Of a DNA stretch of 64,000 nucleotides, positions 43,146-45,138 are shown one piece after another. The notes under the pieces were generated by a model. It worked only from the letters and a program-made list of their open reading frames with translations, was not told where the DNA came from and did not search any database. Origin of the DNA: Candidatus Neomarinimicrobiota bacterium (lineage in GTDB: Bacteria > Fidelibacterota > Marinisomatia > Marinisomatales > TCS55); contig JABIDL010000041.1 of the NCBI GenBank assembly GCA_018651745.1, positions 26,009-90,008 of the forward strand, given 5' to 3'. How positions within the stretch are numbered: the stretch's first letter is position 1; every line of letters begins with the position of its first letter. Position numbers and translations under genes: made by a program.

Positions 43146-43985
43146 ATGAATTCCTTGTCATTCCTAGCTCGCGCCAAGGTTAACATTGGTTTAAAAATCC
43201 TCAGGCGACGCGAAGATGGCTATCACACCATTTCTACTCTTTTCCAAGAAATGGATTTTCATGATACAATACACATCAGCATGGAAAGCTCAGCCTTTTC
43301 GCTTACCACAAATTCCCCATCAATCCCGACTGACGAAACCAACATTTGCTACAAAGCATGGAAAACTCTAAAGGATACATATCCAAAGGTTGGTGGTATT
43401 TCAATTTATATTGATAAGCAAATTCCTGTAGGATCGGGTCTTGGTGGCGGATCGTCTAACGCAGCAGCTGTTGTGAAGGGGTTGAATAAACTATATCATA
43501 TTGGATTGACCAAAGAAAACCTAAATAAATTGGCAGTAAAGATTGGGTCCGATGTCCCCTTTTTTATTTGTGGTGGAACTCAGGTTGGTGATGGAGTTGG
43601 TGAAAAACTTACTCCTATTCAACAGAAGATTAGAGGGACATATCTTTTAGTTGTTCCATCATTTACAATCAGTACATCTTGGGCATATGGGCAAGTTAAA
43701 AACTCATTGGAGAACAAGAATCAGACAACTAACTTCGCCGACCTTTTAGAAAGGGAACCTATTCCTTTCAAGCTGTTTGAGAATGAATTCGAAGATGTGG
43801 TAATTCCTGCATATCCAGAAATTGGCGACATTAAATCCAGAATGATAGCGTCTGGTGCAGTGTTTGCGAGTTTGTCGGGTAGCGGTTCGACTGTGTTTGG
43901 AATTTTCAGCGACGAAACTTTAGCATTAGAAGCGGATCGAAAGTTCAAACCACAGTATCGTACTGTTCTCACCCACCCAGTTTAA
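43146..43985 (+). CDS. ispE: 4-diphosphocytidyl-2-C-methyl-D-erythritol kinase
   Basis: This 279-residue GHMP kinase is the fourth enzyme of the MEP pathway. The ATP-binding loop is IPVGSGLGGGSSNAAAVVKG, after ARAKVNIGLKILRRREDGYH near the start. KIGSDVPFFICGG and SGAVFASLSGSGSTVFGIF are typical of IspE. Five bases separate it from ispF. Together ispD, ispF and ispE give three consecutive MEP steps in one cluster, followed by the tRNA pair. Confidence 0.96.
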   Translation: MNSLSFLARAKVNIGLKILRRREDGYHTISTLFQEMDFHDTIHISMESSAFSLTTNSPSIPTDETNICYKAWKTLKDTYPKVGGISIYIDKQIPVGSGLGGGSSNAAAVVKGLNKLYHIGLTKENLNKLAVKIGSDVPFFICGGTQVGDGVGEKLTPIQQKIRGTYLLVVPSFTISTSWAYGQVKNSLENKNQTTNFADLLEREPIPFKLFENEFEDVVIPAYPEIGDIKSRMIASGAVFASLSGSGSTVFGIFSDETLALEADRKFKPQYRTVLTHPV

Positions 43986-44030: not shown

Positions 44031-44101
44031 TGGGATATTATTTGATGGAAAAATCCGGATTGCTAGTCCGGCTAATGGTGGTTCGAATCCACTCTTCCCA
44101 A
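44031..44101 (+). tRNA. tRNA-like gene with GCU anticodon, unusual structure
   Basis: The anticodon arm is perfect: CCGGA (44055-44059), a seven-base loop with anticodon GCT at 44062-44064, and TCCGG (44067-44071). The T arm is also good (GGTGG, TTCGAAT, CCACT). GCU would read serine AGC/AGU codons, but the variable region is only five bases (CTAAT), whereas bacterial tRNA-Ser has a long arm. The acceptor ends TGGGATA and CTTCCCA pair only in the first five positions. The D arm is weak (ATTT/AAAA, three pairs). It may be a degenerate or minimal tRNA-Ser, or a pseudo-tRNA. It sits four bases before tRNA-Gln. CCA is not encoded. Confidence 0.5.
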
Positions 44102-44105
44102 CTAT

Positions 44106-44176
44106 TGCCGGGTCGTCTAAGGGCAGGACCGCGGCCTTTGACGCCGTTAATCTTGGTTCGAATCCAAGCCCGGCAA
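44106..44176 (+). tRNA. tRNA-Gln (anticodon UUG)
   Basis: A complete cloverleaf can be drawn. Acceptor TGCCGGG pairs with CCCGGCA, D stem GTCT with GGAC, and anticodon stem GCGGC with GCCGT around loop CTTTGAC (anticodon TTG, reading CAA). The T arm is CTTGG, TTCGAAT, CCAAG. The discriminator is A and CCA is not encoded. It lies between ispE and prs, a placement seen in many bacteria. Confidence 0.95.
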
Positions 44177-44190
44177 CTAAAGAAAACATT

Positions 44191-45138
44191 ATGAGTGAAA
44201 GAAAACTAAAAATATTTTCAGGACGTAGCAATCCCGAACTTGCTAAGGGCATTGCCGATCAACTGAATCTGTCACTTGGCGATATTTCTATAAAAAATTT
44301 CGCAGATGGTGAACTCTGGATAAAATTTGAAGAGAATATTCGTGGAGATGATGTTTTCATTATTCAATCCACAAATTCTCCAGCGCAAAACATTCTTGAG
44401 CTTACGTTAATGCTGGATGCTGCTGTGAGAGCTTCTGCCCAACGAGTTACAGCAGTCGTTCCATATTTTGGTTATGGGAGGCAAGACAGAAAAGACCAGC
44501 CAAGAGTTCCTATTTCTTCGCGTGTATTGGTAGATATGTTTACGGCCGCAGGCGCCAATCGATTAATTTCAATGGATTTACATTCCACACAAATCCAGGG
44601 GTTTGCTTCTATTCCTTTTGATCATTTATACAGCCGAATGGTTCTTTTAGAGGAAATAAAAAAATTAGAATTAGAAAAGGACAACTGTGTTGTGCTTGCT
44701 CCTGACGTTGGGTCTGCTTTGATGAGTCAGGCATATGCCAAGAGATTGGGGATGCACTTCGCTTTGATTGAGAAGAGACGATATGAACATAACCGAGCCG
44801 AGGTTACTCATTTAATTGGCGATTTAAAAGACAGACATGTTTTAATCATTGATGATATGATAGACACAGCGGGCACGACGGTCAATGCGGCTACCGCAGC
44901 AAAAGAAAATGGCGCAAAATCTGTTACTGCGATTGCAACGCATGCCATTTTATCGGGTCCAGCAGTTGAAAGAATTAAAGAGTCAAATATTTCTAACCTT
45001 ATTGTAACGGATACTTTAGAAATACCTGAAGACAAAAAAATGGAACAAATGAAAATAATCACAGTCTCCCAAATATTTGGGCAGGCAATTCAACGAATTC
45101 ACACAGGCGAATCGGTCAGTGCCCTGTTTGAATTTTAA
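44191..45138 (+). CDS. prs: Ribose-phosphate pyrophosphokinase
   Basis: This 315-residue enzyme makes PRPP from ribose 5-phosphate and ATP for nucleotide, histidine and tryptophan synthesis. Landmarks are LKIFSGRSNPELAKGIADQL near the start, FADGELWIKFEENIRGDDVF, VVPYFGYGRQDRKDQPRVPI, the SMDLHSTQIQGF metal site and the PRPP loop VLIIDDMIDTAGTTVNAA. The gene starts 14 bases after tRNA-Gln and is followed by rplY after 14 bases. All motifs and the length are normal. Confidence 0.98.
   Translation: MSERKLKIFSGRSNPELAKGIADQLNLSLGDISIKNFADGELWIKFEENIRGDDVFIIQSTNSPAQNILELTLMLDAAVRASAQRVTAVVPYFGYGRQDRKDQPRVPISSRVLVDMFTAAGANRLISMDLHSTQIQGFASIPFDHLYSRMVLLEEIKKLELEKDNCVVLAPDVGSALMSQAYAKRLGMHFALIEKRRYEHNRAEVTHLIGDLKDRHVLIIDDMIDTAGTTVNAATAAKENGAKSVTAIATHAILSGPAVERIKESNISNLIVTDTLEIPEDKKMEQMKIITVSQIFGQAIQRIHTGESVSALFEF

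Follow-up and report, generated by a model that had tools for sequence, protein, structure and literature searches.

A tRNA-Ser(GCU)-like element between ispE and tRNA-Gln in a Candidatus Neomarinimicrobiota genome, probably a degenerating copy of a second tRNA-Asn gene

The window analysed here is a stretch of 64,000 nucleotides of contig JABIDL010000041.1, which belongs to a Candidatus Neomarinimicrobiota genome of 1.86 Mb that is 95.8% complete (G000). Two tRNA genes were predicted in the window by ARAGORN, a tRNA-Ser(gct) at 44031-44102 and a tRNA-Gln(ttg) at 44106-44177, both lying between ispE and prs. The name Asn-II was coined here for the second tRNA-Asn(GUU) of Marinimicrobia, with which the first of these two tRNAs is compared. 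The features of the locus are:

43146..43985, + strand: ispE, upstream gene of the conserved locus, stop codon at 43983-43985 (NCBIfam TIGR00154, E 7.8e-66)
44031..44102, + strand: tRNA-like element, probably an Asn-II type tRNA-Asn(GUU) copy that has degenerated, anticodon now GCU (the Rfam match ends at 44101)
44072..44076, + strand: variable loop of the element, CTAAT, 5 nt (Rfam match and alignment)
44106..44177, + strand: tRNA-Gln(UUG), intact, conserved neighbour (ARAGORN and Rfam)
44191..45138, + strand: prs, downstream gene of the conserved locus (NCBIfam NF002320, E 4.9e-122)

The element was matched by Rfam family RF00005 over 44031-44101 with a score of 37.7 bits, above the curated membership cut-off of 29 bits, and an E value of 9.7e-6, so it is not a chance resemblance. 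It is the weakest of the 41 above-cut-off RF00005 matches in G000, the next one scoring 45.4 bits. A sequence-only reading of the window had described a GCU tRNA-like element with a five-base variable loop, two unpaired acceptor positions and a weak D arm, and this account of its stems and loops was borne out by ARAGORN, Rfam and alignment. The acceptor stem has mismatches at 6-67 (U-U) and 7-66 (A-C), both flagged by the Rfam model, and the D stem has three pairs, or four if residue 26 is counted as missing. Every pair of the anticodon stem is sound, and none is lost from the T stem, which includes one G-U pair. In the minimum-energy fold the D arm is absent, and the energy is -18.4 kcal/mol against -26.0 kcal/mol for the Asn-II of genome G001 (a loss of 7.6).

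Homologues of the locus within the genus were found by a search with a 201-base region of the window, and two other genomes of the genus, both Candidatus Neomarinimicrobiota, were compared: G001 (JAAZYX010000020.1) and G002 (JASLML010000018.1). In both of them an intact tRNA-Asn(GUU) sits between ispE and tRNA-Gln, where the window has the element, and a tRNA-Asn(GUU) is found at the equivalent locus in three other families of the order (f3, f8 and f10). Among 80 IspE loci, tRNA-Gln lies downstream of ispE in 79, the lone exception stopping at a contig end. Asn-II follows ispE in 11 of the 80, and in 69 no other detected tRNA lies between ispE and tRNA-Gln. Where ispE and tRNA-Gln lie far apart at other loci, the Asn-II model matched tRNA-Gln alone and no tRNA relics were found.

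The element can be aligned end to end with the Asn-II of G001, with 55 of 72 positions identical; the next best tRNA within G000 gives 44/70. Its closest tRNAs are Asn-II and tRNA-Gln, not tRNA-Ser, and a tRNA tree from which the anticodon was left out places it with the Asn-II of G001 and G002. Since tRNA trees carry little signal, synteny is the stronger argument. By locus (ispE/tRNA-Gln), full-length alignment and anticodon-free grouping, the element falls into the Asn-II lineage, and the serine label comes from the anticodon alone. At the level of sequence, the element is homologous to Asn-II and shares its synteny, and the form in the window species is the derived one because the sister species and other families keep the intact form. 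A phage or plasmid origin was rejected, as the phage and plasmid collections searched held no match to the element.

Relative to the Asn-II of both G001 and G002, the element carries 18 differences in 72 positions (17 substitutions and one deletion). Numbered by hand in the standard tRNA scheme, these fall at positions 7, 9, 10, 12, 14, 20 (lost), 23, 25, 26, 32, 35, 38, 44, 46, 57, 65, 67 and 73, including the following:

44037, + strand: position 7, G to A, which breaks pair 7-66 (A-C) (alignment to G001/G002 Asn-II)
44040..44054, + strand: D arm, ATTTGATGGAAAAAT, with positions 10, 12, 14, 23, 25 and 26 changed and one base lost (alignment)
44062..44064, + strand: anticodon GCU, formerly GUU (U35 to C) (ARAGORN and alignment)
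44095, + strand: position 67, G to T, which breaks pair 6-67 (U-U) (alignment)
44101, + strand: discriminator 73, G to A (alignment)

The altered bases include the near-universal A14 (now G), G10 and R26, and 11 of the 17 substitutions are from G/C to A/T. One D-stem pair was exchanged and kept (C12-G23 to U12-A23). Elsewhere between G000 and G001, the adjacent tRNA-Gln is changed at 1 of 72 positions and the canonical tRNA-Asn at 0 of 74. Faster change than in neighbouring tRNAs, broken stems and lost near-universal bases are the marks of a tRNA pseudogene, and all three were found in the element, whose pattern of change resembles that of a gene freed from constraint. The anticodon and T stems hold only one substitution in 20 positions, against about five expected if changes were random (P = 0.007, post hoc). 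As these two arms are nearly intact, either the decay is partial or some constraint is left. At fourfold-degenerate sites of ispE, 56% differ between the window species and the sister species compared, so a copy evolving neutrally ever since the two species parted should have decayed more. We read this as decay that started well after the split; residual constraint is a viable alternative.

Elsewhere in G000, at C26:70320-70407 (L026), there is a normal 88-base tRNA-Ser(GCU) whose variable arm is long, and three further long-armed tRNA-Ser have the anticodons UGA, GGA and CGA. The canonical tRNA-Asn(GUU) lies at C10:113-186 (L013) and was the sole match in a pattern search for GUU tRNAs over the assembled part of G000; the missing 4% of the genome may hold a further intact copy. 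Asparagine identity requires the GUU anticodon and G73, for AsnRS and AspRS alike; the element has GCU and A73. What marks a bacterial tRNA as serine is a large variable region together with G73 and features of the acceptor (PMC9976931, Table 1). Of this set, the element has only G2-C71 and the purine-pyrimidine pair 4-69, its variable region being 5 nt long and its discriminator A73, and its nearest tRNAs are not tRNA-Ser. Since the serine and asparagine identity features are missing, SerRS and AsnRS should not charge it.

These facts suggest that the element is very probably a degenerating copy of a redundant second tRNA-Asn(GUU) gene, Asn-II, which has lost its identity. The Asn-II between ispE and tRNA-Gln in the sister species would represent the intact parent form. 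Because the canonical tRNA-Asn was retained in G000, the Asn-II copy would have been redundant and free to accumulate changes, among them G73 to A and the change of U35 to C that would give the serine look. The element is probably still transcribed within the ispE-tRNA-Gln-prs run, and it would be charged with neither asparagine nor serine and do no normal work in translation; a loss of function is what we infer from these changes. The case is of an ordinary kind, a tRNA misread as tRNA-Ser through one anticodon base, and is well supported by synteny. Of the three options first considered from the DNA alone (a decayed gene, a non-translational tRNA or an unusual tRNA-Ser), the decayed gene is thus favoured, but as a decayed tRNA-Asn and not a decayed tRNA-Ser. 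It had also been proposed that a normal long-armed tRNA-Ser(GCU) elsewhere, together with loss of the element in close relatives, would mark it as a remnant; the long-armed gene exists, whereas the close relatives carry an intact tRNA-Asn(GUU) at the site. Gain of an asparagine synthetase was considered as a cause of the decay and is unsupported, since TIGR01536 (AsnB-type asparagine synthetase) had no match above cut-off in G000, G001 or G002.

Among the alternatives, the one that survives best is a tRNA-derived RNA kept for a non-decoding role, as a small RNA, a processing signal or an aminoacyl donor, and even this is improbable. Such a role would account for the anticodon and T arms being intact and for the uneven spread of the changes (1/20 in those stems), and an element in a run with tRNA-Gln could serve transcript processing. 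However, the stem statistic was chosen after the data had been seen and agrees equally well with a decay that is partial and recent, the GCU form was seen in one genome only, and the processing of tRNA-Gln needs no such element, as the 69 of 80 loci with no other detected tRNA in that interval indicate. It is a long shot that the element is made and charged, most likely with arginine, and causes slight misincorporation at AGC/AGU codons, or has a non-decoding role that preserves the anticodon and T arms. A fully functional tRNA of changed identity, charged by ArgRS and placing arginine at AGC/AGU serine codons, is very unlikely indeed. Bacterial arginine determinants are A/G73, G2-C71, A20, C35 and U/G36 (PMC9976931, Table 1), and the element has A73, G2-C71, C35 and U36, a GGA in the D-loop that lets position 20 be read as A, and preserved anticodon and T arms. 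However, A20 hinges on how the deletion is aligned, C35 with U36 is a trivial outcome of one anticodon change, and the element has lost A14 and has a damaged D arm and two broken acceptor pairs. Furthermore, an active Ser-to-Arg tRNA should be harmful, because AGY codons are read as serine by the canonical tRNA-Ser(GCU). The suggestion of an unusual but functional tRNA-Ser with a short variable loop has the GCU anticodon in its favour and is hardly credible, since the nearest relatives of the element are tRNA-Asn and not tRNA-Ser, its body differs from that of a tRNA-Ser, it lacks a serine-type ancestor as well as the long variable arm and G73 of bacterial serine identity (PMC9976931), and a normal tRNA-Ser(GCU) exists in G000.

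With the element read as a decaying tRNA-Asn copy, the intact Asn-II of the relatives is more interesting than the decayed one and deserves separate study. Across eight intact Asn-II sequences, drawn from four families, 55 positions are invariant, and each sequence begins TGGGATGTGGTCTAA. Asn-II accompanies a canonical tRNA-Asn in almost all genomes that allowed a check for both, and its body is closer to tRNA-Gln (48/72 and 49/70) than to the canonical tRNA-Asn (43/73). A role as the sole tRNA-Asn in families f8 and f10 was rejected, because these families also have a canonical tRNA-Asn, whose D arm is slightly different (L200, L201). A literature search for Marinimicrobia tRNA-Asn returned nothing relevant.

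The comparison within the order covered 38 genera. Asn-II occurs in eight of them (g1, g10, g15, g17, g22, g24, g26 and g28), and these are also the eight with gatB, an association inflated by shared ancestry; in g24, one of two genomes gave fragmentary gatB matches only. At the genome level, gatB was found in 23 of 26 with Asn-II, and the three without it (G002, G065 and G074) are 75-89% complete. Genus g27 of family f8 lacks both Asn-II and gatB, as do the other genera in the family of g1. The converse fails: 10 family f15 genomes have gatB and no detected Asn-II, and the same holds for several gatB genomes outside the order.

AsnRS was above cut-off in 49 of 61 relatives, including G000-G002. 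GlnRS was not found in G000, G001, G002, G043, G050 or G060, and is present in G038, G045, G051, G055 and G057. GatCAB is therefore not needed for Gln-tRNA in the latter five, and a natural guess is that it may amidate Asp-tRNA-Asn there. It has been reported that GatCAB recognises U1-A72 (PMC4206432), a pair found in both tRNA-Asn types. Asn-II is a second, Gln-like tRNA-Asn that tracks gatB in this order, and a dedicated tRNA for tRNA-dependent amidation is a testable idea. With gatB retained and Asn-II decaying, G000 evidently does not need Asn-II, and the window species offers a natural knock-out for this idea.

Several further observations were made on these tRNAs and enzymes. G000 has AsnRS and gatB, and neither GlnRS nor AsnB-type asparagine synthetase was found in it above cut-off. 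In G045, which is 99% complete, two tRNA-Asn types and gatB were found with no AsnRS match above cut-off, so this genome may rely on GatCAB to make Asn-tRNA; G057, of the same genus, has AsnRS. Asn-II is patchy across the phylum (L032:1585-1657 on the minus strand, L033:1506-1578, L034:1291-1363, and L035, L038, L043, L193-L196 and L204-L209) and occurs even in genomes of family f15 that are streamlined to 0.9 Mb, where it lies near tRNA-Glu. In another order, two genomes with gatB (G191, L216; G193, L217) have an Asn-II-like tRNA-Asn (TGGGCCGTAGCATAAT...) as well as the canonical one. A third kind of tRNA-Asn(GUU), TGGGCAATAGCAATC... with encoded CCA, was found on a 6-kb contig (L203, G123:C85) of a genome that also has the canonical tRNA-Asn. 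In IMG/VR, five viral contigs (L210-L214) carry an intact Asn-II, that of L210 at the contig end; the genes might be carried by phages or mark sites of prophage attachment. Record VFGY01000022.1 (L186), labelled SAR202 cluster, has ispE followed by a Marinimicrobia-type Asn-II, which suggests that it is misbinned or misnamed.

For annotation, the consequence is that an automatic pipeline lists a serine tRNA that is none, one anticodon change in a redundant tRNA having produced a false decoding assignment. A comparable sign was described with tRNAscan-SE 2.0, where a short variable loop in place of the expected arm of a 'tRNA-Ser' pointed to pseudogenes in a fungus (PMC8450103). Like those tRNA pseudogenes with mutated anticodons, the element has a detectable cloverleaf, a mismatch between anticodon and body, and the form of a short-loop 'tRNA-Ser'; unlike them, it is single-copy, lies in an operon-like conserved place, has a known intact parent and belongs to no repeat family. 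With the Marinimicrobia Asn-II it shares full-length homology, the locus, U1-A72 and the start TGGGAT, whereas it differs from Asn-II in the anticodon, the discriminator, A14, the D arm and two acceptor pairs and is a tRNA-Asn no longer. AsnRS and the two-step AspRS/GatCAB route co-occur in Deinococcus, Thermus and Bdellovibrio (PMC4206432), and G000 likewise encodes AsnRS, GatB and a tRNA-Asn with U1-A72. In contrast to those bacteria, the relatives of the window species carry two tRNA-Asn types, the second of which tracks gatB and is a putative GatCAB substrate.
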